A stretch of DNA of 64,000 nucleotides from Gemmatimonadaceae bacterium (GTDB lineage Bacteria > Gemmatimonadota > Gemmatimonadetes > Gemmatimonadales > Gemmatimonadaceae). The stretch lies in NCBI GenBank assembly GCA_025934775.1, contig JAICWO010000007.1, positions 62,001 to 126,000 of the forward strand, read 5' to 3'. The translations under genes and the position numbers were made by a program. Shown in pieces: positions 24,020 through 42,706 of the stretch; position 1 is the stretch's first letter; each line of letters opens with the position of its first letter. The notes under the pieces were generated by a model that was not told the DNA's origin, did no database searches, and worked only from the letters and a program-made list of their open reading frames with translations.

Positions 24020-25635
24020 GGCTGTACCTCGGGCGCCGATTGCGCGTCCGCGGTCACCATGGCGTCACGCCGCGCGTCGACTTGCGAGACGAACTTGGTC
24101 GCGGCGCCTTCCATTCGCCTGAGCACCGGCGCCGGATAGACGCCGAGCCATACGATGCACGCGACGAGCGGGATGAGCACCGCGAGCTCGCGCTTGTTCA
24201 GATCCGGCACGTGCTCGTTCTCCGGCTTGTCGAGCGAGTTGAAGAGGATGCGCTGAATCGCCCAGAGCAGATACGCGGCGGAAATGATCACGACCGTGGT
24301 CGCGACGAGCGCGAACACCGGCTCCGTGCGGAACGAGCCGATCAGCACGAGGAACTCGCCGACGAACCCGTTGGTCCCCGGCACGCCGATGCTGCTGAAC
24401 GTCACGATGGTGAGCATCGCCGCGAACATCGGAACGACCCGCGCGATGCCGCCGTAGTCGTCGATCAGACGCGTGTGCCGCCGCTCGTAGATCATTCCGA
24501 TCAGGAAGAACAGCGCGCCCGTCGAGATGCCGTGGTTGATCATGACCATCAGGGCGCCCTGCACGCTCTGCACTGTGAGGGCGAAGATGCCGAGCATCAC
24601 GAAGCCCAGGTGGCTCACCGACGAATAGGCGACGAGCTTCTTGAAATCCGGCTGGACGAGCGAAACGAGCGCGCCGTACACGATGCCGATCACCGCGAGC
24701 AGGAGGATGATCGAGCGGATCGTGGGACTCATCGCCGCGGCCGGGAAGAGCGGCACCGCGAGCCGGATGAACCCGAACGTGCCGAGCTTCAACATGATGC
24801 TCGCCAGCACCACCGAGCCGGCGGTCGGCGCCTCGACGTGCGCGTCGGGCAGCCACGTATGGAACGGGAACATCGGCACCTTCACCGCGAACGCGAGGAA
24901 GAAGGCGCCGAACAGCCACTTCGCCGTCGTCGAGCCGACGAGCGCGTGCTGGAGGATCCAGTCGTAGTTGAAGTTCGGCAGCCCGGTCGCCGGATCCCGC
25001 GCCGCGAGCCCGAGATACACGATCGCGGCGAGCATCAGCATCGAGCCCACCATCGTGTAGAGGAAGAACTTGAGGCTCGCGTAGATGCGCCGCTCGCCGC
25101 CCCAGATGCCGATGATGAAATACATCGGCACGAGCATCACTTCCCACATCACGTAGAAGAGGAAGAGATCGAGCGCCAGAAAGACGCCGAGCATGCCGGC
25201 CGTGAGCACGAGCAGAAGCGCGTAGTAGCTGTGGGTGCGCGCGCGAATGCTCGTCCAGCTCCCGCCGACGGCGAGGAGCATGATGAGCGTCGTGAGGAGC
25301 ACCATCATGACCGCGATTCCGTCGATGCCGAGGGTGAAGCGGATGCCCCACATCGGAATCCAGGACCAGTCGACGACGCTCTGCCAGCCGGTGTTGCCGG
25401 GGTCGAAGCTCCACCAGAGGCCGAGCGAGACGACGAACTCGATCGCGAACGTGGCGAGCGCCCACCCGCGCGGGGCGGCGGCAACGCCGGTGGCGACCTC
25501 GTCGCCGCCGGGCGCGCAGCGCGGGCGCGTGACCGCGCCGTGCACCCAGATCACCAGGGCGCCGGCGAGCGGGATCACGAGCAGCGCCGGCAACACCCAG
25601 TGCTGATACCCGATGGACGTCAGGAAAGCGGACAT
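24016..25635 (-). CDS. nuoM: NADH-quinone oxidoreductase subunit M
   Basis: 539 residues from ATG 25635; an upstream in-frame TTG (25686) lies inside a hairpin and was rejected. Antiporter-like proton-pumping subunit: YVMWEVMLVPMYFIIGIWGG holds the conserved TM5 glutamate, PMFPFHTWLPDAHVEAP the lysine loop, and KKLVAYSSVSHLGFVMLG the second lysine. No clear Shine-Dalgarno is seen before the ATG. A strong intercistronic hairpin separates it from nuoL. Confidence 0.95.
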   Translation of the reverse strand: MSAFLTSIGYQHWVLPALLVIPLAGALVIWVHGAVTRPRCAPGGDEVATGVAAAPRGWALATFAIEFVVSLGLWWSFDPGNTGWQSVVDWSWIPMWGIRFTLGIDGIAVMMVLLTTLIMLLAVGGSWTSIRARTHSYYALLLVLTAGMLGVFLALDLFLFYVMWEVMLVPMYFIIGIWGGERRIYASLKFFLYTMVGSMLMLAAIVYLGLAARDPATGLPNFNYDWILQHALVGSTTAKWLFGAFFLAFAVKVPMFPFHTWLPDAHVEAPTAGSVVLASIMLKLGTFGFIRLAVPLFPAAAMSPTIRSIILLLAVIGIVYGALVSLVQPDFKKLVAYSSVSHLGFVMLGIFALTVQSVQGALMVMINHGISTGALFFLIGMIYERRHTRLIDDYGGIARVVPMFAAMLTIVTFSSIGVPGTNGFVGEFLVLIGSFRTEPVFALVATTVVIISAAYLLWAIQRILFNSLDKPENEHVPDLNKRELAVLIPLVACIVWLGVYPAPVLRRMEGAATKFVSQVDARRDAMVTADAQSAPEVQP

Positions 25636-25659
25636 GTATGAGACGTGAGCTCGTTGATC

Positions 25660-25706
25660 GGCCGGGCCAATGGTTGACTCAGTCAACCGATTGGTTGCGC
25701 CCGGCC
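25660..25706 (-). promoter_or_regulatory. Intercistronic hairpin between nuoL and nuoM
   Basis: Minus strand: GGCCGGG, a five-base bulge, CCAAT, a one-base bulge, GGTTGACT, a central G, then AGTCAACC, ATTGG and CCCGGCC. Twenty pairs can form in three helices. It begins four bases after the nuoL stop and ends 24 bases before the nuoM ATG. There is no T-run, so RNA processing, 3'-end protection or partial attenuation are likelier than termination. Confidence 0.6.
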
Positions 25707-25710
25707 ACTA

Positions 25711-27909
25711 TTAGCGAATCGTGACAGCCCCCAGCACGCACAGCACCCCGATCACCAGCACCCAGGCATAGGTCCCGAGCTGCCCGGACTGGAGCTGCGA
25801 CCCGATCCAGCCGACGAACCGGGCGAAGAGCGCCGAGCCATTCACCGCCAGCCCGTCGATCAGACCCGCGTCCACGCCGCGCCAGAGCAGCCCGCGCGAC
25901 GTGCCGACCACCGGCGTGACCACCGCGGCGTCGTAGATCTCGTCGACGTAGTACTTGTCGAGCAGCACCTTCTCGAAGCCTTCTTCCGGCACGGCTTCGC
26001 GCTTCGGCACGAGCGACTTGGGATCGAGCCGCGTCGCCGCGTACGCGATACCGCCGATCGCGATCAGCACCGCGAGGCCGACCAGCCCGTACTCGAGTCC
26101 TGGCGACGTCTCGGCGGCCCCGGCGATGACGCGCTGCGTCGACGCACCGACGACCGGATCGAGCCAGCGCTCGAGGGCGCCGACCGGTCCGAGAAACCGC
26201 GCGAACTCCGGAATGTTGATCCAGCCGCCGGCCAAGGTGAGAATCCCGAGCACCAGCAGCGGCCCCGTCATGATCCACGGCGCATCGTGCAGGTGCTCGC
26301 GTTCCTTGTCGCCCGTGCGATTGGGCCCGTGGAACGTGTAGATCATCATCCGCGTCATGTACGTCGCCGTCATGAACGCCGCGACGATGCCGAGCAGGTA
26401 CGCGAAGTACAGCCACGCCGACCCGGAGATGCCGAACAGGTGAGCGTCGGCGATCGTGGAATGCTGCGCGCGGGCGAACACTCCGCCCAGGATCTCGTCC
26501 TTGGAGAAGAAGCCAGCGAACGGCGGCACGCCAGAGATCGCGAGCGTCGCGATCCACATCAGCGCCCACGTCCACGGCATGTAGGCGCGCAGTCCGCCCA
26601 TGTTGCGCATGTCCTGCGCATCTTCGTGGCTGCCGGTGTGGTGATACGCCTCGTGCATCGCGAAGATCACCGAGCCGGAGCCCAGGAACAGCAGCGCCTT
26701 GAAGAAGGCGTGCGTCACGAGGTGAAACACGCCGGCCACGTACGCGCCCGATCCCACGCCGACGAACATGTAGCCGAGCTGCGAGACGGTCGAATAGGCG
26801 AGCACCTTCTTGATGTCCCACTGCTTGAGCCCGATCGACGCGGCGAAGATCGCCGTCAGCGCTCCGATCATCACGACGACGATCTGCGCCACCGGCGCGA
26901 TCGAGAACAGGAAGCCCGTCCGCGCGATCAGATAGACGCCGGCGGTCACCATCGTCGCGGCGTGGATCAACGCGGATACGGGCGTCGGGCCGGCCATGGC
27001 GTCCGGCAGCCAGACGTAGAGCGGGATCTGCGCGCTCTTGCCCGCGCAGCCGAGGAAGAGGAAGAGGCAGATCGCCGTGACGAGCGCCCCGCCGAACTGG
27101 AGCGACGTGGACGCGGCGCGCACGGCGTCGAAATCGAGCGTTCCCAGATTCGCAAAGAGGAGGAACATCGCGATCAGGAAGCCGAAATCGCCAATGCGGT
27201 TGACGATGAACGCCTTCTTGCCCGCGTCCGCATTGGCCTTGTCGCTGAACCAGAAGCCGATGAGCAGATACGAACAGGTCCCAACGCCCTCCCAGCCGAT
27301 GAACATCACCGGGAAGTTGGCGCCGAGCACCAGGAGCAGCATGAAGAAGACGAACAGATTGAGGTACGCGAAGTAGCGCGGGTACCCCGGATCGTCCTGC
27401 ATGTAGCCGACGCTGAAGAAGTGGATCAGCGTGCCGACGCCCGTGATGACGAGCATCATCATCATCGAGAGCTGATCGAGCTGGAACGCCGCATCCAGCT
27501 TCAGATCGCCGACCGGCATCCAGGAGAAGTAGCGCTGGATGAACGGCGTCGCGATCTCCCCCGCCCCGTGCATCGCGAAGAAAATCGCCGCCGTGAGGAT
27601 GAACGAGAGCAGCAGCACGCCCGGTCCGACGATGCTCGTGAGCATCGCGAACGGATGGCGCTTCACCTGATGGTGATCGTCGCCATGGGCGCCGTGCTCC
27701 TCGTCGTGGGTGCCGTGCCTGTCGCCATGCCCGTCGCCGTGAGCGAGCGTCGGATCGGCGGGTCCGGCGTGATAGGCGCTGACGATCGAGAAGGCGCCGT
27801 TGATCAGGAAGCCGAGGAACGGCAGCAGCGGCACCGCCCAGAGCCACGAGGCGGCGGTGCCCTGCAGCGGGTGCGTTCCCGCGGCGGCGGCCTGCAAGAG
27901 AGGAAGCAT
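25711..27909 (-). CDS. nuoL: NADH-quinone oxidoreductase subunit L, with a histidine-rich loop
   Basis: 732 residues from ATG 27909 (ATGA overlap with nuoK). Antiporter-like subunit with the long lateral helix. WEGVGTCSYLLIGFWF, VWLPDAMAGPTPVSALIHAA and KKVLAYSTVSQLGYMFVG are standard. Unusually, the loop after the first membrane segments (residues 57-85) contains nine histidines and many Asp and Gly (AHGDGHGDRHGTHDEEHG and continuing), which looks able to bind metal. The C-terminal region (about 560-732) carries the distal amphipathic helix and final membrane segment. Confidence 0.96.
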   Translation of the reverse strand: MLPLLQAAAAGTHPLQGTAASWLWAVPLLPFLGFLINGAFSIVSAYHAGPADPTLAHGDGHGDRHGTHDEEHGAHGDDHHQVKRHPFAMLTSIVGPGVLLLSFILTAAIFFAMHGAGEIATPFIQRYFSWMPVGDLKLDAAFQLDQLSMMMMLVITGVGTLIHFFSVGYMQDDPGYPRYFAYLNLFVFFMLLLVLGANFPVMFIGWEGVGTCSYLLIGFWFSDKANADAGKKAFIVNRIGDFGFLIAMFLLFANLGTLDFDAVRAASTSLQFGGALVTAICLFLFLGCAGKSAQIPLYVWLPDAMAGPTPVSALIHAATMVTAGVYLIARTGFLFSIAPVAQIVVVMIGALTAIFAASIGLKQWDIKKVLAYSTVSQLGYMFVGVGSGAYVAGVFHLVTHAFFKALLFLGSGSVIFAMHEAYHHTGSHEDAQDMRNMGGLRAYMPWTWALMWIATLAISGVPPFAGFFSKDEILGGVFARAQHSTIADAHLFGISGSAWLYFAYLLGIVAAFMTATYMTRMMIYTFHGPNRTGDKEREHLHDAPWIMTGPLLVLGILTLAGGWINIPEFARFLGPVGALERWLDPVVGASTQRVIAGAAETSPGLEYGLVGLAVLIAIGGIAYAATRLDPKSLVPKREAVPEEGFEKVLLDKYYVDEIYDAAVVTPVVGTSRGLLWRGVDAGLIDGLAVNGSALFARFVGWIGSQLQSGQLGTYAWVLVIGVLCVLGAVTIR

Positions 27910-28202
27910 CAGCCCTTGAGCAGGTTGATGTTCTGAAGATTGACCGTCTGACGATGACGGAAGAGCGCGATGATGATCGCGAGGCCGACCGCGGCTTCCG
28001 CCGCAGCGACGGTCATCACGAAGAACACGAATACCTGTCCGGCGACACCATACACCTGCGCGAACGCGATGAACGTCAGGTTCACCGCGTTGAGCATCAG
28101 CTCGACGCACATGAAGACGATGATCGCGTTGCGCCGGATCAACACGCCGAACACCCCGATCACGAACAGCACCGCCGAGAAGAAGAGCGCTTCAGGCAAC
28201 AT
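27909..28202 (-). CDS. nuoK: NADH-quinone oxidoreductase subunit K
   Basis: 97 residues, three membrane helices, the MrpC-like subunit of complex I. Both proton-path glutamates are kept: [15 protein letters not shown] near 31-45 and [11 protein letters not shown] near 67-77. It overlaps the nuoJ end by 11 bases and the nuoL start by four, so translation of J, K and L is linked. Confidence 0.97.
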
Positions 28203-28761
28203 CGCGAGCCTCCTTCTGCTTGCCGAGCAGCACCGCGCCGACGATCGCGGCCAGGAGCAGAATGCTCGTGACCTCGAAGGCGAGCAGGTACTCGTTGAAG
28301 AGTGGCGCGGCGATCGGCGCGACGGCGCCGTGCTGCGCGACCTGCTCGGCCGCGTAGCCCTGCGGGAGCGTGAGGTTGACCGGAGTCTTGGCGCGCGTGA
28401 GGGCGAAGACCTGGGCGAGGATGCCGAGCCCGATGGCGCCGGCGACGATCTTCCAGCCGACGCCGCGCACGTCGATGCCCTCGCCCTGGCCGAGGTTGAG
28501 GAGCATGATCACGAAGAGGAACACGACCATGATCGCGCCGGCGTAGACGAGCACCTGCACCGCGCCGATGAACTGCGCGTCGAGCAGGATGTACATCGCC
28601 GCGAGGCAGAACATCGTCGACACCAGCCACAGGGCCGCGGCGACGGGGCTCTTGCGCGTCACGAACAGCAGCGCGGAGATGACGCCGATCAACCCGAACA
28701 GGTAGAAATGGAAGATGTAGAAGAGCGAGAGCGTCCCGTGCGGCATGCCGAGTGTTTGCAT
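28192..28761 (-). CDS. nuoJ: NADH-quinone oxidoreductase subunit J
   Basis: 189 residues from ATG 28761, which overlaps the nuoI stop as TAATG. Five membrane segments; [19 protein letters not shown] and [20 protein letters not shown] are the conserved NuoJ stretches, the latter being TM3 with its pi-bulge. An extra N-terminal 13 residues are possible from an upstream start, but the coupled start is preferred. Confidence 0.95.
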
Positions 28762-29258
28762 TACTCGCCCTTCGGATCGGCGGGGTCCCACATCTCGCAC
28801 ACCGGGTGCGTCTGCGACATCAGGCGCTCGAGGTCGTAGACGAAGCCTTCGCGGCTGTATTCAGAGTTCTCGTAATGCCGCCCGACGTGGATCGCCTCTT
28901 CCGGGCACACCTCCTGGCAGTAGCCGCAGAAGATGCAGCGGAACTCGTCGATCTCGAACAACAGCGGATAGCGGTTCCCGTTCTCGTCCTCGCCGGGGAC
29001 CAGCTTGATGCAGTTCGACGGGCAGACGGTGGGACAGAGGCCGCAGGCCACGCACTTGGCCTTGCCGTCCTCGGTCGTCAGCATGCGATGCGTGCCGCGC
29101 CAGCGCGGCGAGACGCCGAGCTTCTGCTCCGGATACTGGATCGTGACCTTGTCGCGATCCAGCAGATGCTTGAGCGTGAGCGCCATGCCGCTGATCGTCG
29201 CGCGCACGTAGCTCGTCTGCGGGATGGGGCGGTCGAGAACCTTGACGTTGATCGCCAT
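28761..29258 (-). CDS. nuoI: NADH-quinone oxidoreductase subunit I (two 4Fe-4S ferredoxin)
   Basis: 165 residues. Two complete 4Fe-4S motifs, CVACGLCPTVCPSNC and CIFCGYCQEVCPEEAI, bind clusters N6a and N6b that hand electrons on to N2 in NuoB. The N-terminal amphipathic part anchors it to NuoH. Its ATG overlaps the nuoH stop (ATGA) and its stop overlaps nuoJ. Confidence 0.97.
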   Translation of the reverse strand: MAINVKVLDRPIPQTSYVRATISGMALTLKHLLDRDKVTIQYPEQKLGVSPRWRGTHRMLTTEDGKAKCVACGLCPTVCPSNCIKLVPGEDENGNRYPLLFEIDEFRCIFCGYCQEVCPEEAIHVGRHYENSEYSREGFVYDLERLMSQTHPVCEMWDPADPKGE

Positions 29259-30592
29259 CAGTCGGCGCCTCCTTCACTGTGAGCCGGGGCGAGCCGGGCG
29301 CGGCGCGCGTCCAGTTGCCGCAGCTTCTCGAGATTCCGCTTGTCGAGCCGCGAGTATGCCGGGCTCACCAAGCGGCCTTTGTCGAGGAACGTGAACAGCA
29401 GCACCGCGATGATGATGTTCGCGGCCAGCATGATCACCGCGTACTGCCACGACGCGGGATGAATGCCCGCCGCGTCGAGGCCGAGGGTCATCGCCGCGAT
29501 GAAGACGACGTACGCGAGCGCCGTCGGGAGCATGATCTTCCAGCCGAGCGCCATGAGTTGGTCGTAGCGGAAGCGCGGGAGCGTCCAGCGCACCCAAATG
29601 AAGACGAACACGAAGAAGAGGATCTTCGCCCAGAAGAACGCGAACGTCACGAGGGTCTTGAGGAACGTGTGCGGCGCGACGTTGTCCCATACGGTGAACG
29701 GAATGTCCCAGCCCCCCAGGAACAGCGTCGACATGAGCGCGCACGACGTCATCACGTTCGCGTACTCGGCGATGAAGAACATCGAAAACTTCATCGCGCT
29801 GTACTCGGCGTGATATCCGGCGATCAGCTCGGACTCCGCTTCGGGGAGGTCGAAGGGGACGCGGTTCGTCTCGGCGAACGCCGAGACGAAGAAGATGAAC
29901 CAGGCGATCGTGCACGTGAGCACGTTCCAGTGGAGCCCGCGGCCGGCCTGCTGCGACACGATCCGGCTCAGCGACACGTTCCCGGCGAGGATGAGCACGG
30001 GGATGATCGCCATGCCCATCGAGATCTCGTACGAGATCATCTGCGCGCTCGAGCGCAGGCCGCCAAGGAGCGCGTACTTGTTGTTCGACGACCAGCCGGC
30101 GAGCACGATGCCGTACACGCCGAGCGACGCGATCGCGAGGATGTAGAGGAAGCCGACGGGCAGCGGCGCCAACGCCATGTCGATCGTTCCCCACCTCGAT
30201 TCCCACGGCGCGCCGTACGGAATCACGGCCCAGACGAGCAGCGCCGTGGTGAACGACATCGCCGGCGCGAGCACGAAGAGCGGCAGGTACGCCTGACCGG
30301 GGTACGTCTCCTCCTTCATGATGTTCTTGACGCCGTCGGCGACGGATTGGAGCAATCCGTGCGGCCCGACGCGATTGGGGCCGCGTCGATCCTGAATGAA
30401 CGCACAGATGCGGCGCTCGGCCCAGATCACGAGCATCACGCCGACCATATAGATGGTGAACGTGATGAGCATCTTGACAATCGTGGCGAGGAACCAGACG
30501 CCGCCGCTTGGCGGCGGCGGGAGGATCTCGAGGCCGCTGCTCGTGCGTGTGGCGCCCGCGGCGGCCGCTTGCAGCAGTGCGAATGACATCAT
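29258..30592 (-). CDS. nuoH: NADH-quinone oxidoreductase subunit H
   Basis: 444 residues with eight to nine membrane segments. The quinone-chamber loop IQDRRGPNRVGPHG and the acidic funnel AETNRVPFDLPEAESELI are intact. It connects the peripheral arm to the membrane arm. The C-terminal 60 residues (LDKGRLVSPAYSRLDKRN onwards) form a charged tail longer than in E. coli. Two adjacent ATG codons (30592, 30589) overlap the nuoG stop. Confidence 0.96.
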   Translation of the reverse strand: MMSFALLQAAAAGATRTSSGLEILPPPPSGGVWFLATIVKMLITFTIYMVGVMLVIWAERRICAFIQDRRGPNRVGPHGLLQSVADGVKNIMKEETYPGQAYLPLFVLAPAMSFTTALLVWAVIPYGAPWESRWGTIDMALAPLPVGFLYILAIASLGVYGIVLAGWSSNNKYALLGGLRSSAQMISYEISMGMAIIPVLILAGNVSLSRIVSQQAGRGLHWNVLTCTIAWFIFFVSAFAETNRVPFDLPEAESELIAGYHAEYSAMKFSMFFIAEYANVMTSCALMSTLFLGGWDIPFTVWDNVAPHTFLKTLVTFAFFWAKILFFVFVFIWVRWTLPRFRYDQLMALGWKIMLPTALAYVVFIAAMTLGLDAAGIHPASWQYAVIMLAANIIIAVLLFTFLDKGRLVSPAYSRLDKRNLEKLRQLDARRARLAPAHSEGGAD

Positions 30593-32163
30593 GCGCTCGC
30601 TCCCGCGGGCGCCTTTTCGCCGGCGACGACCGTGCCCCGGAGTCCGAGCGTGTCGTAGGACATTCCGGCGAACTCGGACTTGGCCGCGGCAAGTGCGGCG
30701 AACACTTCGCTCGCGAGCGAGTAGTTGCTCGTCACGCCGATCGCGGTGAGCAGGTCGCTCAGCACGTACCAGCTCGGCCGCGCGAAGCCCGGCGCCGCTT
30801 TCGCCTGCATGAAGCGCTGCACGCGTCCGCGAAGGTTGGTGAAGGTGCCTTCCTCCTCGACCATGTTGGCGATCGGGAGCACGACCGCGGCCGCGTGCCG
30901 TGCCCAGGCCGGGAGCGTCGTGCCGATCACGATGATCGCCGAAGCCTTGGCGACGTCGGGCGCGTCGACGCCCGCGAGCTCCTCGTCGGCGACGACGAGC
31001 ACGTCGCCGGCGCCAAGCTTGGAGAGCGGCGCCGCGTCTCGCGTGAAGCCGACGAGCTCCGCGCCGCGCGCGTTGGCGGCGCGGTCGGCCCGCAATGAGA
31101 GATCTTTAACGCCTGGTAGCGGCGCCTCGTCGCCCTGCTCCACCCGGATCGCGCCGGCGCCCGCCGTCTTCTGTGCGAGCTGCGAGAGCAGGAAGAGCGA
31201 CTCGTTCGAGAGCGATGGCGAGGCGAGCACGAACGCGCGCTTCCCGCTGATGACGCGCGCCGCCTCGGCGATCGCGAGCTCCCAATCGGTGCCGGCGAGC
31301 GTCGCGCCGCGGCGCACCATCGGGACGTCCACGCGGTCCTGACGGTTCATCCACCGGTAGTTCAAGCGGCCGTGGTCGCACATGAAATAGGAATTCACCT
31401 TCTCGTTCGGCCGCGGGCGCAGGCGCATGACCGTGTTGTCGCGCGTCTCGACGATCATGTTGCAGCCTTGCGAGCAGCTCGGGCAGATCGAGCCGGTGCG
31501 ATCGAGCTCCCAAGCGCGGGCCTTGTTCAGCGAATCCTTGGAGAGCAGCGCGCCGACCGGACACAGATCGATGACGTTGCCCGCCCAGGGATGCGTCAGA
31601 TCCTTGCCCTCGAACTTGCCGATCACCGCGCGGTCGCCCCGCTCGCTGACGTTGAGCACCGGCTCGTGCGCGATGTCATCCATGAAACGCACGCAGCGCG
31701 TGCAGAGAATGCATCGGTTGGTGACGTACATGACGTCGCCGCCGAAGTCTTCCGCGGGATTGAAGCGCTTGGGATCGCGGAGGCGGCCCTCGGCCCGGCC
31801 TTCCTGGTACGTGTAGTCCTGCAGCTCGCACTCGCCCGCTTGATCGCAGATCGGGCAGTCGAGCGGGTGATTGATCAGCAGCATCTCGAGCACGCCTTTC
31901 CGTGCGTCGAGCGCCTTGTCGGAATGGATGTGCACCACCTGCCCTTCGGCGACGGCCGTCGCGCACGACGGGGCGAGCTTGGGGCTCTTCTCGACTTCCA
32001 CGAGGCACATGCGGCAGACGCCGGCCACCGGAAGTCCAGGGTGGTAGCAGTAGTGCGGAACGAGCACGCCCGCGTACTTGGCCGCCTCGAGGATCGACGT
32101 GCCGGCCGGTACGCTGACCTGGCGCCCCTCGATCGTCAGGTTGACCATTGGTGCTTCAGCCAT
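30589..32163 (-). CDS. nuoG: NADH-quinone oxidoreductase subunit G (short form)
   Basis: 524 residues from ATG 32163 (ATGA overlap with nuoF). The N-terminal 2Fe-2S domain (HYCYHPGLPVAGVCRMC), the His-Cys cluster region (HPLDCPICDQAGECELQDY), the N4-type CILCTRCVRF with later CPVGAL, and CPSCSQGC plus a distant CDHGR, the pattern of the extra N7 cluster, are present. The molybdopterin-like C-terminal domain is much shortened relative to the about 700-900 residues of common NuoG. Everything needed for electron transfer is kept. Confidence 0.94.
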   Translation of the reverse strand: MAEAPMVNLTIEGRQVSVPAGTSILEAAKYAGVLVPHYCYHPGLPVAGVCRMCLVEVEKSPKLAPSCATAVAEGQVVHIHSDKALDARKGVLEMLLINHPLDCPICDQAGECELQDYTYQEGRAEGRLRDPKRFNPAEDFGGDVMYVTNRCILCTRCVRFMDDIAHEPVLNVSERGDRAVIGKFEGKDLTHPWAGNVIDLCPVGALLSKDSLNKARAWELDRTGSICPSCSQGCNMIVETRDNTVMRLRPRPNEKVNSYFMCDHGRLNYRWMNRQDRVDVPMVRRGATLAGTDWELAIAEAARVISGKRAFVLASPSLSNESLFLLSQLAQKTAGAGAIRVEQGDEAPLPGVKDLSLRADRAANARGAELVGFTRDAAPLSKLGAGDVLVVADEELAGVDAPDVAKASAIIVIGTTLPAWARHAAAVVLPIANMVEEEGTFTNLRGRVQRFMQAKAAPGFARPSWYVLSDLLTAIGVTSNYSLASEVFAALAAAKSEFAGMSYDTLGLRGTVVAGEKAPAGASA

Positions 32164-33476
32164 CACGCCACCGCCGGCACGAGGTGAACCTTCTTCTTCT
32201 TGATCAGCGCCTCGAAATCGGCGCGGAACTTCTTGATGCCCGACGACACCGGCGTGGCGCACGAGTCCGAGAGCACGCAGATCGTCTTTCCGGTCATGTT
32301 CTCGCCGATGTCGAGCAGCGTGTCCAGGTCCTCCGGCGTCCCTTCGCCGGCGACGATCCGCTCCAGGATCCGGGTGGTCCACGCGGTGCCTTCGCGGCAC
32401 TGCGTGCACTGCGCGCAGCTTTCGTGGGCGAAGAAGCGGGCGGCGCGCGCGATCTGCTTCACGAGGTTCTGTGCGTCATCGATCACGATCACGCCGCCCG
32501 ATCCGAGCATGGTGCCCTGCGCCACGAAGCCTTCGTAATCCATGAACGACGCATCGGCTTCCTCGACGGTCTGAATCGGGACCGAGATGCCGCCCGGGAT
32601 GATCGCCTTGAACTTGCGGCCGGGCAGCGGCCCGCCACAGAGGTCATATAAGAAATCTTTAAACGGAAAGCCCATCGCCACTTCGTAGTTGCCGGGCTTC
32701 TGGATGTTGCCGCACACCGAGAAGAGCTTGGTGCCGGTGCTCTTCGGGTTGTCGGGCCGCATCCACTGCTTGTACCAGTCCGCGCCGTTGGTGAGGATGT
32801 GCGGCACGGCGGCGAGCGTCTCGACGTTGTTGATCGTCGTCGGCGACTTGAACACGCCGGAGACGGCCGGGAACGGCGGCTTGATGCGCGGGTTTCCGCG
32901 GCGGCCCTCGATCGAGTTCATCAGCGCCGTCTCTTCGCCGCAGATGTACGCGCCCGCGCCGCGATGGACGTAGATGTTGATCGTCTTGCCGGAACCCATC
33001 GCGTTCTTGCCGAGGATCCCGGCCGCGTAGCACTCCTCGAGCGCTTTCTCGACGCGAAGGGTCGGTTCGGTGAACTCGCCGCGAATGTAGATGTAGCACG
33101 TCTCGGCGCCGATCGCGTACGAGCCGATCGCGCAGCCCTCGACGAGGGCGTGCGGCGTCCACCGCATGATCTCGCGATCCTTGAACGTGCCCGGCTCCGA
33201 CTCGTCGGCGTTGCAGCAGAGGTAGTGCGGCTTGCCGTCATCCAGCTTCATGAACGACCACTTCACGCCGGTTGGAAATCCGGCGCCGCCGCGGCCGCGC
33301 AGCCCGGAGGCCTTCACGACGTTGACGATGTCGCCCGGCGGCGTGCCGAGCGCCTGCTTCAGCGCGGCGTAGCCGCCGCGCTTCTTCCAGCCGTCGAGCG
33401 TGCGCGCTTCGGGATCGCCGAAGTACTTCGAGAGCAGGACGGTCTCGCGCTCGTGAGGTGTGTGCGGATAGCCCAT
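32163..33476 (-). CDS. nuoF: NADH-quinone oxidoreductase subunit F
   Basis: 437 residues. The FMN/NADH site shows GLRGRGGAGFPTGVKWSF and CNADESEPGTFKDREIM; cluster N3 ligands are in ESCAQCTQCREGTAW with a later CVLSDSCATP. It takes hydride from NADH and passes electrons to NuoE and NuoG. It starts 12 bases after nuoE and overlaps nuoG by one base of its stop. Confidence 0.97.
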   Translation of the reverse strand: MGYPHTPHERETVLLSKYFGDPEARTLDGWKKRGGYAALKQALGTPPGDIVNVVKASGLRGRGGAGFPTGVKWSFMKLDDGKPHYLCCNADESEPGTFKDREIMRWTPHALVEGCAIGSYAIGAETCYIYIRGEFTEPTLRVEKALEECYAAGILGKNAMGSGKTINIYVHRGAGAYICGEETALMNSIEGRRGNPRIKPPFPAVSGVFKSPTTINNVETLAAVPHILTNGADWYKQWMRPDNPKSTGTKLFSVCGNIQKPGNYEVAMGFPFKDFLYDLCGGPLPGRKFKAIIPGGISVPIQTVEEADASFMDYEGFVAQGTMLGSGGVIVIDDAQNLVKQIARAARFFAHESCAQCTQCREGTAWTTRILERIVAGEGTPEDLDTLLDIGENMTGKTICVLSDSCATPVSSGIKKFRADFEALIKKKKVHLVPAVA

Positions 33477-33488
33477 GTCGCTGCGCTG

Positions 33489-34073
33489 TTACTCGAGTTC
33501 CGAGAGGATCTCCGGGACGCGCTCCGGAGTGACCGACTCGACGAAATCTTCATTGATCATGATCGGCGTCGCGAAACCGCAGGCGCCGAGACATTCCACT
33601 TCGATGACCGTGTACTTGCCGTCCGCCGATGTCTGCCCGAGCTCCTGGCAGCCGGTGTGCTTGAGGAAAGACTCAACGACGTTGTCGGCGCCGCAGACGT
33701 TGCACGGCGACGTCGTGCACACCTGAATGAAGTGGCGGCCGACCGGATGCTGATGATACATCGTGTAAAACGTGACGACGCCCTTCACGTACGCCGGCGT
33801 GAGCTCGAGCACTTGGGCCACTTCCGCCATGCCGTCGTCGCTGACCCAGCCGCGCTCGTGCTGCACCATCCACAGTGCGGGGAGCAGTGCGGCCATCTTG
33901 GTCGGATACCGGGACAGCACGTCGTCGAGCTCCTTGCGGCGCGCGCTCCCCGGCGTGAACACCGGCGTGTACGGCCCGTGCTCGTGGTCGCCGTGCGAGG
34001 CGTCGGCCGGCGCGCGAAGGTCGCCGGCTTCGCGATGCATCCGGAAGTAGGCGGGATCGTCGCTGGCGCTCAT
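33489..34073 (-). CDS. nuoE: NADH-quinone oxidoreductase subunit E
   Basis: 194 residues with the thioredoxin-like 2Fe-2S domain at about 45-190. Ligands lie in VCTTSPCNVCGADN and VECLGACGFAT. The first 40 residues are an extension containing a small His cluster (ASHGDHEHGPY). It is the NADH-module partner of NuoF. ATG overlaps the nuoD stop. Confidence 0.95.
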   Translation of the reverse strand: MSASDDPAYFRMHREAGDLRAPADASHGDHEHGPYTPVFTPGSARRKELDDVLSRYPTKMAALLPALWMVQHERGWVSDDGMAEVAQVLELTPAYVKGVVTFYTMYHQHPVGRHFIQVCTTSPCNVCGADNVVESFLKHTGCQELGQTSADGKYTVIEVECLGACGFATPIMINEDFVESVTPERVPEILSELE

Positions 34074-35383
34074 CGATCAATCTCTCCCATCACGATGTCG
34101 ATCGAGGCGTTGATGGCGATGACGTCGCTCAGCATGTGGCCTTCGACCATGCGCGGAATCGCCGACAGGTTCACGAACGACGGCGGACGAATGCGCCAAC
34201 GCACCGGCTTCGACGAGCCGTCTGACACCATATAGTATCCCTTCTCGCCTTTCGGGCTCTCCACTGCGACGTAGCACTCGCCGAGCGGCGGCCGCGGACC
34301 TTCCATCACCTGCTTGAAATGATGGATCATGGATTCCATGTCGCTCGTCGCCTTGCTCTTGGGCGGAAGAATGACACGGTGATTGTCGATGTTGACCGGG
34401 CCGTCGGGCAGCCGCTTCATCGCCTGCTCGATGATGCGCGTCGACTGCCGCAGCTCGTCGACCCGCACGAGGTAGCGATCGTACACGTCGCCGTGCGTAC
34501 CGACCGGCACCTCGAAATCGTACGTCTCGTAGTCGAGATAGGGAAAATCCTTCCGGACGTCGAATGCCACGCCGGACGCACGGGCCATCGGGCCCGAGAG
34601 CCCGTAGTTCACCGCCTCGTCCGGCGACATCACGCCGAGTCCGACGGTGCGTCCCACCCAGATGCCGTTGCGCGTGATCACGCGCTCGATCTCGTCGACG
34701 ACTTTGGGGAAGCCCTTGGTGAACGCGGTGAGCCCCTCGATCCAGTTGTCCGGGATGTCGGCCGCCATGCCGCCGACCCGCGTGATCGTCGTCGTGAGAC
34801 GCGCGCCGACCCACGCCTCCAGCAGCTCGTACACTTTCTCGCGCTGCTGGAACGCCCAGAGGAACGGCGTGTAGGCGCCGATGTCGATGCAGGTGGTGCC
34901 GAGCCAGACGAGGTGTGAGATGATGCGCGAGAGCTCCATCGCGATCACCCGCAGCACCTTGCACCGCTCCGTGATCTCGATGCCGAACAGCCGCTCGGCG
35001 CCGAGCGCGAAGGCGACGTTGTTGCCCGGCGAGTTTAGATAATCCTCACGATCGGTGTACGGGATGATCTGGTTGTACTGCCGGTACTCGCCCGTCTTCT
35101 CGAAGCCGCAGTGGAGATAGCCGATGTGCGGGATGCAGCGCACCACCGTCTCGCCGTCGAGCTCGAGAACCAGCCGGAGCACGCCGTGCGTCGCCGGATG
35201 CTGGGGCCCGATGTTGATGAGCATATGCTCACCATCGAGACCGGGCTCGATCGCCGGGGGCGCCTCGACCGTCACCACGTTGCCGCCGGCGTCCACCGCG
35301 AGTGGAACGCGCTGCGGCCGGCCCTGCGCGTCGAGCCCAGTGGTCGACAGCTCGACTTCGACCGTCCGTTTCGTCGTCGCCAT
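34070..35383 (-). CDS. nuoD: NADH-quinone oxidoreductase subunit D
   Basis: 437 residues; separate from NuoC, not fused. The quinone-site loop INIGPQHPATHGVLRLV begins near residue 51, and the C-terminus has the conserved PSFVNLSAIPRMVEGHMLSD. About 45 N-terminal residues precede the conserved domain. It forms the quinone cavity with NuoB. It starts three bases after the nuoC stop. Confidence 0.97.
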   Translation of the reverse strand: MATTKRTVEVELSTTGLDAQGRPQRVPLAVDAGGNVVTVEAPPAIEPGLDGEHMLINIGPQHPATHGVLRLVLELDGETVVRCIPHIGYLHCGFEKTGEYRQYNQIIPYTDREDYLNSPGNNVAFALGAERLFGIEITERCKVLRVIAMELSRIISHLVWLGTTCIDIGAYTPFLWAFQQREKVYELLEAWVGARLTTTITRVGGMAADIPDNWIEGLTAFTKGFPKVVDEIERVITRNGIWVGRTVGLGVMSPDEAVNYGLSGPMARASGVAFDVRKDFPYLDYETYDFEVPVGTHGDVYDRYLVRVDELRQSTRIIEQAMKRLPDGPVNIDNHRVILPPKSKATSDMESMIHHFKQVMEGPRPPLGECYVAVESPKGEKGYYMVSDGSSKPVRWRIRPPSFVNLSAIPRMVEGHMLSDVIAINASIDIVMGEIDR

Positions 35384-35386
35384 CGG

Positions 35387-36091
35387 CTACTCTCCCGTCC
35401 GCTCGCCGGCGTTCAACCGGTGCTTCATGTCGTCCGGCAAGTCCTCGTACGCCTCGGCGATCGACAGCTCGTCACGCGAGTAGCGCGCTTCCGGGTTGGC
35501 CGCGAGCGCTTGCCGCAACTGCTCCGAGCGGCTGAACCGGCCGCGGAGCGGAAAGTCCTTGCGCAGCGGAAAGCCTTCCTTGTAGCCCTCCCACATGAGG
35601 AGTCGACGCAGGTCCGGGTGTCCGACAAACTGAATGCCGAACATGTCGTAGCACTCGCGCTCGAGCCAATCCGCGCCGCGATAGATGTCCCACACGCTCG
35701 GTACCTCGAGCGCCGCGCCGCGCGGCATCTCGACTTTGATCCGCAGAAATCGGCGATACGGCAGCGAGCGGAGATGCCACACGACTTCGATCGGCTGCTC
35801 GAGATCGCGATACTCGACCGCGGTGACGTCCGACAGGTAGTCGTACCGCTGCGACGGATCGTCGTGCAGCCACTGCACCATCTCGTGCACCCGCGCGGGA
35901 TCGACGTAGACCGTGGTCTCGCCCCACATCACGACGACACGCCGGAGCGCCGCGCCGAATTTCTCGCGCAGGGCGTCGGCCGACGGATTCGCGTCGCCGC
36001 CGCGATGCGGAACGTTCTTGGGTGAGACCGGCGCTGGCGCGCTCGCGCCGAGAGCACTGCCAGCGACGGCGGGTGTGAAGCCGCCGCTCAC
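35387..36091 (-). CDS. nuoC: NADH-quinone oxidoreductase subunit C (30 kDa)
   Basis: 234 residues from GTG 36091 (GTGA overlap with nuoB). The 30-kDa family signature is [20 protein letters not shown] near 150-170. The first 35 residues are Ala/Pro-rich low complexity. It is a structural subunit of the peripheral arm beside NuoD. The longer open frame upstream is out-of-phase nuoB sequence. Confidence 0.94.
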
Positions 36092-36711
36092 AGGCCGGAC
36101 CGCGTCTGGTGGACCGAGTTGCCGAACGGCTCGGAGATCTCGTCGATCACCGACGGCGGCACATACAGTTGGCTGCTTGGATCCGGCTCCATCTCGTTGC
36201 GAAGCGAGGCGTCGCTCGAGCGCTCGTTCTGAATTTTCTTCTGGAGCAGCATGATCCCGTACAGCAAACCTTCGGGCCGCGGCGGGCAGCCCGGCACGTA
36301 CACGTCCACGGGGATGATGTTGTCGATGCCTTGCACCACGGCGTAGTTGTCGAAGATGCCGTTGCCCGACGAGGCGCACGCGCCCATCGAGATGCACCAC
36401 TTGGGCTGCGGCATCTGCTGCCAGATGCGCCGCAGCACCGGCGCGAGCTTGAACGGCACGCGGCCGGCGCAGATCAACACGTCGGCCTGTCGCGGCGAGA
36501 AGGCCTGGCGCTCCATTCCGAACCGCGCCAGATCGTACTTGCTCGCCGCCGTGGCCATGAATTCGATCGCGCAGCACGCCGTGCCGAACGGCATTGGCCA
36601 GAGCGAATTCTTGCGACCCCAGTTCACGAGCGCGTCGAGCGTCGTCGTCATCCAGGGGACGTCGCTCTGCATCTCCACGGTGTTCGCCGGCTCGCTCCGA
36701 CTCAATCCCAT
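36088..36711 (-). CDS. nuoB: NADH-quinone oxidoreductase subunit B
   Basis: 207 residues from ATG 36711, ten bases inside the nuoA end. Cluster N2 ligands are present: the tandem cysteines of [21 protein letters not shown] and [10 protein letters not shown]. It passes electrons to quinone. The C-terminal 35 residues are a variable tail. Upstream in-frame sequence lies inside nuoA and was not used. Confidence 0.96.
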
Positions 36712-37106
36712 TGCAACGCTCCCTTCTTCCACACGTAGATGAAGCCGACCAGCAGGATGATCATGAACACGATCATCTCGGACAGCCCGAACAGCGACAT
36801 CTGGCCCGAGGGGCAGATGTCGTTTGCGAGGGGCACGGTGCACGAGAGCTGCCGGTAGTACGCGCCCCACGGAATCATGAAGACGGTTTCGATATCGAAA
36901 ATGATGAACAGCACCGCCACCATGTAGAACTTCACGGAGAAGCGCTCATGCGCATCGCCGAGCGGCGGCATACCCGACTCGTAGGGTACCTGCTTGATCG
37001 GTGTCGGGCGTGGCCGGAGGGTGAGGTGCGACAGCCCCAGCATCACGACCGCATTCACGAGGATGAAGCCGAGGAGAAGCAGGACTGGAAAGTACGTGTG
37101 AAGCAT
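36702..37106 (-). CDS. nuoA: NADH-quinone oxidoreductase subunit A
   Basis: 134 residues with three membrane helices; the loop [20 protein letters not shown] matches the conserved NuoA segment that contacts the quinone chamber. It is the first gene of nuoABCDEFGHIJKLMN, which is complete and in the usual order. An AGGAG ribosome site sits five bases before the ATG, and a Rex-like palindrome ten bases before it. Confidence 0.97.
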
Positions 37107-37115
37107 ATTCTCCTA

Positions 37116-37137
37116 CTTCGTGAAAACTTTCACTAAG
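37116..37137 (-). promoter_or_regulatory. Rex-like palindromic operator in the nuoA leader
   Basis: Minus strand: CTTAGTGAAAGTTTTCACGAAG is a near-perfect palindrome (one mismatch in ten pairs). Its core TAGTGAA-AGTT-TTCACGA matches 12 of the 14 defined bases of the Rex operator TTGTGAA-N4-TTCACAA, with the right four-base spacer. Rex is an NADH/NAD-sensing repressor known to control nuo genes in other bacteria. It lies about 12 bases downstream of the nuo -10 box, a position suited to repression. No rex gene is in the window. Confidence 0.55.
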
Positions 37138-37149
37138 TCCAGCGGCGGA

Positions 37150-37178
37150 AAGTTATCGGAGCCAGGAACGAGGGTCAA
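37150..37178 (-). promoter_or_regulatory. Sigma-70-type promoter of the nuo run
   Basis: Minus strand: -35 TTGACC (37173-37178), 17 bases, -10 TAACTT (37150-37155). The -35 matches five of six; the -10 is weaker. Transcription would start near 37143, leaving a 37-base leader that contains the Rex-like palindrome and the AGGAG ribosome site. Confidence 0.5.
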
Positions 37179-38244: not shown

Positions 38245-39015
38245 TCAGCCGCCGCCGAGAACCTTCTCCTCGTGCTCGTGGCGCGTGGCGACGAGGAAGT
38301 CCCGATTCATCCGCGCGATCGTGTCGATGCTGATCTGCTTGGGGCACGCCTCCTGGCATTCGCCGTACAACGTGCAGTGCCCGAAGCCTTCGGCGTCCAT
38401 CTGCGCGACCATGCGGGTGGCGCGCCGCTCGCGCTCGGGTTGGCCTTGCGGGAGCAGGCCCAGGTGCGAGATCTTGGCCGCGGTGAAGAGCGACGCCGAG
38501 CCGTTCGGGCATGCCGCGACGCACGCGCCGCAGCCGATGCAGGCGGCCGCGTCCATGGCTTCGTCGGCGTCGCGCTTGGCGACGGGAATGTTGTTGGCGT
38601 CCTGCGGACTGCCGGTGGGCGCCGTGATGAACCCGCCCGAGGCGATGATACGGTCGAACGCGCTGCGGTTGACGACGAGGTCCTTGATCACCGGGAACGC
38701 GCGCGAGCGCCAGGGCTCGATGTAGATCGTGTCGCCGTCGCCGAAGCTGCGCATGTGGAGCTGGCAGGTCGCGGTGCCGCGCATCGGTCCGTGCGCGACG
38801 CCGTTGATCATCATGCCGCAGGAGCCGCAGATGCCCTCGCGGCAGTCGTGATCGAACGCGATCGGCGGCTTGCCGCTCTCGACGAGGCTCTCGTTCACCA
38901 CGTCGAGCATCTCGAGGAACGACATGTCGGGGCTGATGTCGCGGGCCTCGTAGCGCTCCATGCCGCCCCGGGCATCGGGGCCGGGCTGGCGCCAGACGTG
39001 TAATGTAAGATTCAT
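38245..39015 (-). CDS. sdhB: Succinate dehydrogenase iron-sulfur subunit
   Basis: 256 residues from ATG 39015. It opens [20 protein letters not shown], as in type B enzymes. The 2Fe-2S site is [16 protein letters not shown] with a later cysteine; 4Fe-4S and 3Fe-4S ligands lie in [14 protein letters not shown] and [18 protein letters not shown]. It carries electrons from SdhA to the haem-bearing SdhC and menaquinone. A heptamer hairpin separates it from sdhA. An upstream in-frame start lies inside that repeat and was rejected. Confidence 0.96.
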
Positions 39016-39020
39016 AATAT

Positions 39021-39088
39021 GAGAGTGGAGATTAGAGAGTGGAGAGTCGAGAGTGCATCGACTCTCCACTCTCGACGCTCCGCTCTCC
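39021..39088. repeat. Heptamer-repeat hairpin element 3 (sdhA-sdhB gap)
   Basis: Plus strand: GAGAGTG, GAGATTA, GAGAGTG, GAGAGTC, GAGAGTG at 39021-39055, a five-base centre, then ACTCTCC, ACTCTCG, ACGCTCC, GCTCTCC at 39061-39088. Bases 39035-39049 and 39059-39073 are a perfect 15-base inverted repeat with a nine-base loop. The element touches the sdhA stop codon and ends five bases from the sdhB ATG. Confidence 0.9.
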
Positions 39089-41005
39089 TCATTTGTACGA
39101 TCGCTGCGACAACGGCACGTTCTCGAACACCAGCGGCTCCTTGTTCAGCACCGGCGGCTGCGCGTCGCCGGCGTACTCCCAGGCGGCCACGTAGGCGAAC
39201 TGCTCGTCGTGGCGGAGCGCCTCGCCGTCCGGCGTCTGGTGCTCCACGCGGAAGTGCCCGCCGCACGACTCCTCGCGGTGCAGCGCGTCGATGCACATGA
39301 GCTCCGCGAGCTCCAGAAAATCGGCCACGCGTCCGGCGTGCTCGAGCGACTGATTGAGCTCCGCGCCCGTGCCGAGCACACGCACATCGTGCCAGAACTC
39401 GTCGCGCAGCTTGGGAATCACCGCGAGGGCCTGCTTCAATCCTTCGGCGCTCCGCGCCATCCCGCAGTACTCCCACATCAGGCGCCCGAGCTCGCGGTGG
39501 AACGATGCCACCGTGCGGCTGCCCTGCACCGACAGCAGCTTCTCGGTGCGCTGCCGCACCGCCGCCTCGGTGGCTTTCACCTCGGGGCTGTCGACCGACA
39601 CCGGCTCGAGCTTGTTCGAGCCGAGGTAGTCGCCGATCGTGAGCGGCACGATGAAATAGCCGTCGGACAACCCCTGCATCAGGGCGCTCGCGCCGAGGCG
39701 GTTGGCGCCGTGATCGGAGAAGTTCGCTTCGCCGGCCACGTGCAGGCCGGGGATCGTGCTCATGAGATTGTAATCGACCCAGAGGCCGCCCATGGTGTAG
39801 TGCGGCGCCGGGTAGATGCGCATCGGCACCTCGTACGGATTCTCATCCGTGATGCGCTGATACATCTCGAACAGATTTCCGTAGCGCTCGGCGATCTTCT
39901 CCTTGCCGAGGCGCCTGATCGCGTCGGCGAAATCGAGGTACACGCCGCGGCCGCCGGGGCCCACGCCGCGACCTTCGTCGCAGACTTCCTTCGCGGCGCG
40001 CGACGCGATGTCGCGCGGCGAGAGGTTGCCGAAGCTGGGATATTTGCGCTCGAGGTAGTAATCGCGGTCGGCGTCCGGAATGTCCTGCGGGCGCTTGCCG
40101 CAATCCTCCTTGCGCTTCGGCACCCAGACGCGGCCGTCATTGCGCAGCGACTCCGACATGAGCGTGAGCTTGCTCTGATGGTCGCCGCTCACGGGAATGC
40201 ACGTCGGATGGATCTGCGTGTAGCACGGATTGGCAAAGGCGGCGCCGCGCTTGTACGCGCGCCAGATCGCGGTCGCGTTCGACCCTTTCGCGTTCGTCGA
40301 AAGATAGAAGACGTTGGAGTAGCCGCCGCTCGCGAGCACCACGGCGTCCGCGAGGTGCGACGAGATCTCGCCGGAGACCATGTCACGTACCACGATCCCG
40401 CGCGCGCGGCCGCTGATCACGATGAGATCGAGCATCTCGGTGCGCGGGTACATCGTCACGCCGCCCTTGGAGACTTCCTTCTCGAGGGCTTGATAGCAGC
40501 CGAGGAGCAGTTGCTGGCCCGTCTGGCCGCGCGCGTAGAACGTGCGCGACACCTGCGCGCCGCCGAACGACCGGTTGGCGAGGAGTCCGCCGTACTCGCG
40601 CGCGAACGGCACGCCCTGCGCGACGCACTGGTCGATGATGTTCACGCTGACCTGCGACAGGCGGTAGACGTTCCCCTCGCGCGAGCGGAAGTCACCGCCC
40701 TTCACCGTGTCGTAGAACAGCCGGTAGACCGAGTCGCCGTCGTTCTGGTAATTCTTGGCGGCATTGATCCCGCCCTGCGCGGCGATGCTGTGCGCGCGGC
40801 GCGGCGAATCCTGGAAGCAGAAGCACTTGACGTTGTATCCAAGTTCGCTCATGGTCGCGGCCGCCGCTCCGCCGGCCAGACCGGACCCCACCACGACGAC
40901 GGTGAATTTTCGCTTGTTCGCGGGACTGACCAGCTTCATCTCGAAGCGGTGCTTGTCCCACTTGCGTTCGATCGGCCCCGAGGGGACTTTCGATTTCAGC
41001 TCCAT
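39089..41005 (-). CDS. sdhA: Succinate dehydrogenase flavoprotein subunit
   Basis: 638 residues from ATG 41005, the long type B form. The FAD-binding [20 protein letters not shown] starts near 36; [14 protein letters not shown] is the covalent-flavin region with the histidine; [20 protein letters not shown] and [20 protein letters not shown] are substrate and FAD loops. It oxidises succinate to fumarate. It begins five bases after sdhC; the frame upstream of 41005 is out-of-phase sdhC sequence. Confidence 0.96.
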
Positions 41006-41010
41006 GGGCG

Positions 41011-41691
41011 TTATCGAATGATGCCGGCGATCACGCCGAGCGGAACGAGCGTGAAGCCGAGCCAGACGACGATCGCCACGACGAGCGCGATGCGCCGATG
41101 CAGCGGGTTCGGCGAGGCCTTGGCGTAGCCCAGCGTGCGGATCGAGCTCCAGGCGCCGTGGTACAAGTGCAGCCCGAGCGCGATCATCGCGGCAATGTAG
41201 AAGACGGCGACCCACCAGATCTGGAAGCTCGCGACGATGTTGCCGTACACGTCGCGGTCCCCCGCGACGTCCGTCATGCCGCGCATGCCGGCCGGGTCCA
41301 CGGTCTGGGTCGTGAAGTGCAGGATGTGGAAGATGATGAACGCGAGCAGCAGGACGCCGCCCCATTTCATCGTGCGCGCCGCGAGGGTGGAGACCTGCGG
41401 CTCGCGGTGCTCGTAGCCGATCGGGCGCGCGGCGCGCGAGCGCATCGTGAGCTGGTACGCCATGAGCACGTGGAGGATTACCGCGACGATCAGGATGATC
41501 CGGAGCACCCACAGCAGCTCGTTGAGCGGGCCGTGCAGCATGGCGCCGTACGCGTTCAGCTTGCGCGGGCCGGCGAACGCCTGGAGGTTGCCGGCCATGT
41601 GCAGGATCACGAAGGCGATGCCAATCAGCCCCGTGACCCCCATGATGATCTTCTTGCCGATCGTGGACCGGTAGAACGCGAGGGGATGCAT
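41011..41691 (-). CDS. sdhC: Succinate dehydrogenase cytochrome b subunit (type B, di-haem)
   Basis: 226 residues with five predicted membrane segments, the single long anchor of type B succinate:menaquinone oxidoreductases; no sdhD is needed. Candidate haem-ligand histidines lie in [30 protein letters not shown] and GLHLYHGAW. Menaquinone as acceptor agrees with the mqn genes at 4-7 kb. It follows mdh across heptamer element 4. Confidence 0.93.
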
Positions 41692-41695
41692 GACA

Positions 41696-41774
41696 GGAGA
41701 TTAGAGAATGGAAATTAGAGATTGGAGATCAGCGACATCCGCGGCCAATCTCCAGCGTCCAACCTCCAACCTCG
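41696..41774. repeat. Heptamer-repeat hairpin element 4 (mdh-sdhC gap)
   Basis: Plus strand: GGAGATT, AGAGAAT, GGAAATT, AGAGATT, GGAGATC at 41696-41730, a 16-base centre, then AATCTCC, AGCGTCC, AACCTCC, AACCTCG at 41747-41774. TGGAGAT and ATCTCCA pair over seven bases. It fills the gap from four bases after the sdhC ATG side to two bases before the mdh stop. Confidence 0.85.
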
Positions 41775-41776
41775 CG

Positions 41777-42706
41777 CTACAATTTCACCGATTTCATCGG
41801 CTCGCGCACCGCTTCGGCGCTCTTCTCCAGCGCCGCGCGCTCGTCCGACGTCAGCTGCACCTCGATCACCTGCTCGAGTCCCTTCCGTCCCAGCTTGCAC
41901 GGCACGCCGAGGAAGAGCCCCTTCATCCCGTATTCACCATCGAGCCACGCGGCGCACGGCAGGATCCGACGCTGATCGTTCACGATCGCCTCGGCCATCT
42001 GCACGGCGCCCGCGGACGGCGCGTAGTACGCCGACCCGGTCTTCAGGTGCTTGACGATCTCGGCGCCGCCGCTCCGCGTGCGATCGACGATCGCGTCGAG
42101 CTTGGCCTTGTCGATGAGCTGCGTGATCGGAATGCCGCTCACGCTCGTGTACGAGATCAGCGGCACCATCGTGTCGCCGTGTCCGCCGAGCACCATCGCC
42201 TGAATGTCGCGCACGGAGACGTCGAGCGCCTCGGCGAGGAACGCGCGGTAGCGCGCGGTGTCGAGCACGCCCGCCATGCCGAGCACGCGCTCGCGCGGGA
42301 AGCCGGACACCTGCTTCGCGACGTAGCACATCACGTCGAGCGGATTCGAGACGATGATCAGGATCGCGTTCGGCGAGGACTTCTTGATGTTCTCGGCGAC
42401 CTGCTTGACGATGTTGGCGTTGGTGTTGAGCAGATCGTCACGCGACATGCCGGGCTTGCGCGCGATGCCGGCGGTGATGATGACGATGTCCGAGTCGGAC
42501 GTTTCGTCGTAGCCGTTGGTGCCGACGATGCGCGAATCGAAGCCCTCGATCGGCGCCGACTGCCACTGGTCGAGTCCCTTGCCCTGCGGAATGCCCTCGA
42601 CGACGTCGACCATCACGACGGTGCGGGCCAGCTCCTTTTCCGCGACACGCTGCGCAGTCGTCGCGCCCACGTTCCCGGCGCCGACGACGGTGATTTTATT
42701 GACCAT
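41777..42706 (-). CDS. mdh: Malate dehydrogenase (LDH-like)
   Basis: 309 residues of the lactate-dehydrogenase-like malate dehydrogenase group. NAD motif [12 protein letters not shown] at 7-18; substrate arginines in [14 protein letters not shown]; catalytic His in [12 protein letters not shown]. It oxidises malate to oxaloacetate in the TCA cycle. Specificity for malate over lactate is inferred from the Arg in the ARKPGMSR loop and from linkage to sdhCAB. A nine-pair inverted repeat lies just before the ATG. Confidence 0.95.

Follow-up and report, generated by a model that had tools for sequence, protein, structure and literature searches.

The nuo leader

The window, the 64-kb stretch of DNA analysed here, carries on its minus strand an operon for respiratory complex I. 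Its first gene, nuoA (36702–37106, with its start at 37106), matches the NCBIfam family for NADH-quinone oxidoreductase subunit A with an E-value of 1.5e-26, a match below the curated cut-off, and is followed by nuoB to nuoN (22436–36738), with families B, C, D, E, F, G, H, I, J and K and three proton-antiporter subunits of the L, M and N types in order on the one strand. The divergent neighbour of the operon is a dCTP deaminase gene. Genes for succinate dehydrogenase subunits and malate dehydrogenase (38245–42706, read by sequence) adjoin nuo and have no Rex-like site.

On the minus strand the leader runs TTGACC, 17 nt, TAACTT, 14 nt, TAGTGAAAGTTTTCACGA, AG, TAGGAG, AAT and the ATG of nuoA. 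The promoter (37150–37178) is of the sigma-70 type, with TTGACC at 37178–37173, a 17-nt spacer and TAACTT at 37155–37150. As TAACTT fits TATAAT at only three of six positions, a strict −10 scan misses it; support for the call comes from many relatives, in which a TTGACN-17/18-TA(A/G)NTT box recurs ~14 nt ahead of the operator. Transcription would start near 37143, so that the palindrome, TAGTGAAAGTTTTCACGA (TAGTGAA-AGTT-TTCACGA, minus strand, 37135–37118, within the 37116–37137 originally marked out), would span about +8 to +25 of the transcript. Directly after it comes the nuoA ribosome-binding site TAGGAG (37109–37114, to within 1–2 nt). The agreement with the Rex consensus TTGTGAA-N4-TTCACAA is at 12 of 14 positions, the two mismatches being at positions 2 and 17. 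The site lies 14 nt past the −10 box of a respiratory operon, nuoA to nuoN, where a Rex operator might be expected. The original prediction read the locus correctly in the number of matching positions, the placing between promoter and ribosome site and the identity of nuoA. We consider the palindrome to be the Rex operator of this operon with a probability of about 0.93, on the evidence of a weight matrix, conservation and the tracking of rex by the site.

Rex and its own predicted operator

Is there a Rex for such a site to serve? The genome encodes a clear one, on contig C19, as a single protein with both PF06971 and PF02629 over cut-off, an NCBIfam Rex match at E 1e-78 and end-to-end alignment with the Thermus aquaticus Rex structures (E 2e-49). 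Compared by eye with Thermus Rex, QVRKDLS, GKRGLGY, GAGKIG and the Tyr before GF all align, and with the DNA and NAD contacts listed in PMC8836258 as guide, the VRKDLS recognition helix, the G-rich wing, GxGxxG and the Tyr of the NAD site are kept.

At the start of this rex gene is a perfect TTGTGAA-N4-TTCACAA palindrome, TTGTGAATGAATTCACAA, which by its sequence and place qualifies as an autoregulatory Rex operator. The listed upstream GTG falls inside it, and so the true start of rex is probably the GTG of VKHIADS. Perfect or near perfect sites stand before nearly all of 30 class-wide rex genes examined. In the rex promoter of one class relative (genome G043, L142:1457–1488) there are two overlapping Rex palindromes, TTGTGAAAACTTTCACGTGAAAGTTTTCACGA, a double operator.

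Significance of the match

A plain consensus match is weak evidence on its own. The nuo site is the only one in the window with three or fewer mismatches to the consensus, and 0.35 such matches are expected by chance. The consensus count being insignificant alone, an independent 18-column weight matrix was built instead from the sites before 31 rex genes (30 from the class together with that of the genome itself), with the window's site excluded. By this matrix the nuo site scores 21.7 bits, the top of the window, with the runner-up at 6.6 bits; in 200 first-order Markov sequences, each of 64 kb, the highest score was 15.8 bits, so that none came up to 21.7.

Conservation before nuoA

Is the palindrome kept in related nuo promoters? 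It precedes nuoA in 78 of 80 relatives, nearly all of which are labelled Gemmatimonadota, a site being counted where GTGAA-N4-TTCAC with at most one core change lies no more than 250 bp upstream, and it is kept class-wide. The thought that it arose by chance in an AT-richer leader draws on the consensus scan at three mismatches, for which 27 of 100 shuffles gave at least one match; that reading is already refuted by the conservation, the high matrix score also speaks against it, and we give it next to no weight. Bases 3–6, 12 and 14–16 are invariant in all 79 sites (the window's included), while the central bases vary. At base 17, 76 of these 79 nuo sites have G, where rex-gene sites carry A. 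In the Gemmatimonadales, the order to which the window belongs, the nuo site is consistently below consensus and hardly ever perfect, with C or A at position 2 and G at 17. Most other families of the class have a perfect TTCACAA as one half of it, and in G077 the whole nuo site is a perfect Rex site, TTGTGAACTATTTCACAA. By its sequences, then, the predicted nuo site type is one that grades continuously into the perfect Rex consensus.

The fixed G at position 17, a deviation shared by nuo sites and absent from rex-gene sites, might indicate some other regulator whose half-site is similar, one of the CRP/FNR family for instance, the more so in that the CRP consensus overlaps that of Rex. Set against CRP (TGTGA-N6-TCACA) and FNR (TTGAT-N4-ATCAA), however, the nuo site has GTGA...TCAC in common and is missing the outer T/A, and GTGAA...TTCAC, its inner A/T being fixed, is the pattern of Rex. 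Moreover a matrix made from rex-gene sites puts the nuo site far above the rest of the window, in other orders one half is perfect for Rex and in G077 both are, and the site vanishes together with rex (below). Judged from the site sequences and their tracking of rex, a different regulator is very unlikely, and the palindrome is better taken as an operator for Rex.

Loss of the site with rex

A rex gene is present in 129 of the 149 genomes of a class sample, most of them metagenome assemblies in which the absence of a gene can be a gap. Among 24 rex-containing genomes chosen, 23 have nuoA, and the nuo site is found in 23 of those 23. Fourteen rex-less genomes have nuoA; dropping G129, with its partial rex gene of 50% identity, leaves 13, and 11 of these 13 are without the site, while G075 has a mutated core and G116 an intact site. 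Site and rex are associated by a Fisher test with p about 1e-8 uncorrected for descent and 1e-5 when counted by genus, the rex-less genomes being partly non-independent (genus g41 supplies four). Likewise, the sole two of the 80 relatives without a site (L027 and L028) are both without rex.

The exceptions bear looking at. Where the site is present and rex was not found (G116, L067 and L074), ksgA, which adjoins rex in a close relative, was not found either, and the rex stretch is therefore probably missing from those assemblies. G075 and the genome of L027 have ksgA and not rex, which speaks for real loss of rex. In L026, apparently the same as G075, the core of the nuo operator is mutated, TTGCACGA, as if the operator were decaying now that its repressor has gone. 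Genus g41, which has no rex, keeps the promoter, as TTGACC-17-TAGCTT, and has lost the palindrome. Judged from these sequences, the same predicted operator arrangement is retained through the class and disappears where Rex does. Two genomes (G140, L182; G116, L158) have a second, divergent NuoA-like gene, and no Rex site precedes the copy in G140.

The palindromic element adjoins the ribosome site and is inside the inferred transcript, and one could envisage its RNA folding into a leader hairpin that masks that site and controls nuoA translation. A hairpin so used would not account for what is seen: the arms do not vary and show no compensating changes, bases in the centre are often unpaired, the distance from the element to the start codon is mostly 11–20 nt and ranges from 11 to 87 nt among the relatives, and where rex has gone the element has gone too although the promoter remains. 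We rejected this RNA reading on the invariant arms, the unpaired centre and the loss with rex, and consider its chances minimal. The Rex-operator reading, in comparison, has the support of an encoded Rex, of conservation, of co-loss and of the sibling sites to which we now turn.

Other predicted Rex sites

The motif is also found upstream of other redox genes of the genome, a check that the original prediction proposed. The list comes from a pattern search for sites above 20 bits rather than from a whole-genome matrix scan, and may be incomplete. It comprises the site of rex itself (32.3 bits), one before atpA (31.1 bits; AtpA and the gamma subunit downstream by Pfam), one before a cytochrome c operon (30.8 bits), one before atpZ (27.3 bits; ATPase_gene1 and ATP-synt_B downstream by Pfam) and the nuo site at its 21.7 bits. 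The cytochrome c operon has by Pfam a multihaem cytochrome, a molybdopterin/4Fe-4S protein, NrfD and cytochrome c, and would be of the alternative complex III (ACIII) type. The sites before nuo and rex are class-wide. That before atpA is in four of four rex-containing genomes of the window's order and in none of other orders, and that of the ACIII-type operon is in the window's genome and G148 only; these two are therefore not class-wide.

Most genomic matches to GTGAA-N4-TTCAC are GC-rich, score below 15 bits and lie mostly inside long reading frames, and were not counted as operators. Weaker candidates, at 17.2 bits or less, are at C40, C12:186182, C14, C24:293409, C16:134534, C19:3787, C17, C38 and C20. 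One weaker Rex-like site of 17.2 bits is ATGTGAGTTCTTTCAAAA (L273:982–999, which is G000:C12 near 186182).

Proposed mechanism

In other bacteria Rex occupies its DNA when apo or bound to NAD+, and NADH releases it (PMC5355995, PMC8836258); it is from this known biochemistry that the direction of the loop, with nuo repressed when NADH is low, is taken. At low NADH a Rex dimer, in the NAD+ or apo form, would sit on the 18-bp site and nuo would be off, the bound protein blocking RNA polymerase either from leaving the promoter or from passing the site; the site comes shortly after the inferred start, which suits blocked promoter escape or a roadblock. As NADH builds up, with low oxygen or surplus reductant, NADH-bound Rex would leave the DNA, complex I would be made and NADH re-oxidized, giving overall a negative feedback on the NADH/NAD+ ratio. 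The same Rex would also control its own gene, two ATP synthase transcription units and the ACIII-type operon. What the sequences show is the site, its place close to the promoter, an encoded Rex with intact motifs, conservation and the joint loss of site and regulator; binding, repression, the response to NADH and the transcription start are inferred.

Does the sub-consensus nuo operator of Gemmatimonadales, as against the perfect rex operator, reflect an affinity-ranked response in which Rex switches much of the oxidative phosphorylation chain? Affinity tuning of the nuo site is the natural hypothesis, and to the reading as a whole we would give rather less than even odds. If it is correct, less NADH would suffice to free complex I than to free rex, ATP synthase or the ACIII-type operon.

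Relation to known systems

Gemmatimonadota are common, hard-to-grow soil and freshwater bacteria. A search of the papers available found no Rex study in this little-studied phylum, and what has been mapped there, a palindrome that is almost certainly the binding site of Rex, would be a new instance of a familiar kind of switch. It would provide a phylum-level redox circuit for Gemmatimonadota in which NADH itself governs how much complex I is made, and the natural losses of rex, with loss of the operator and not of the promoter, may be a clean evolutionary test case of regulon decay.

The Rex regulon of Streptomyces avermitilis includes nuoA1-N1, atpIBEFHAGDC, cydA1B1CD and rex-hem, and binding to and repression of nuoA1-N1 and atp have been established there by EMSA, ChIP and footprint at sites with similar mismatches (PMC5355995). 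Common to it and to the arrangement predicted here are the repressor family, the 18-bp operator, the imperfection of sites by one to three mismatches, complex I and ATP synthase as targets, and autoregulation. However, the S. avermitilis nuo operator overlaps the −35 (−42 to −16), whereas that of the window follows the −10 and would span about +8 to +25, a position similar to that of the cydA1 operator of S. avermitilis. The genome of the window also differs in having a predicted ACIII-type target and no cyd or hem sites among its strong matches. Rex of Thermus and Thermotoga (3ikt, 1xcb, 7wb3; PMC8836258) is alignable end to end with the protein on C19, in which recognition helix and NAD-site motifs are kept, but Thermotoga Rex governs carbohydrate and hydrogen metabolism by way of a somewhat different operator, while the targets predicted here are respiratory.
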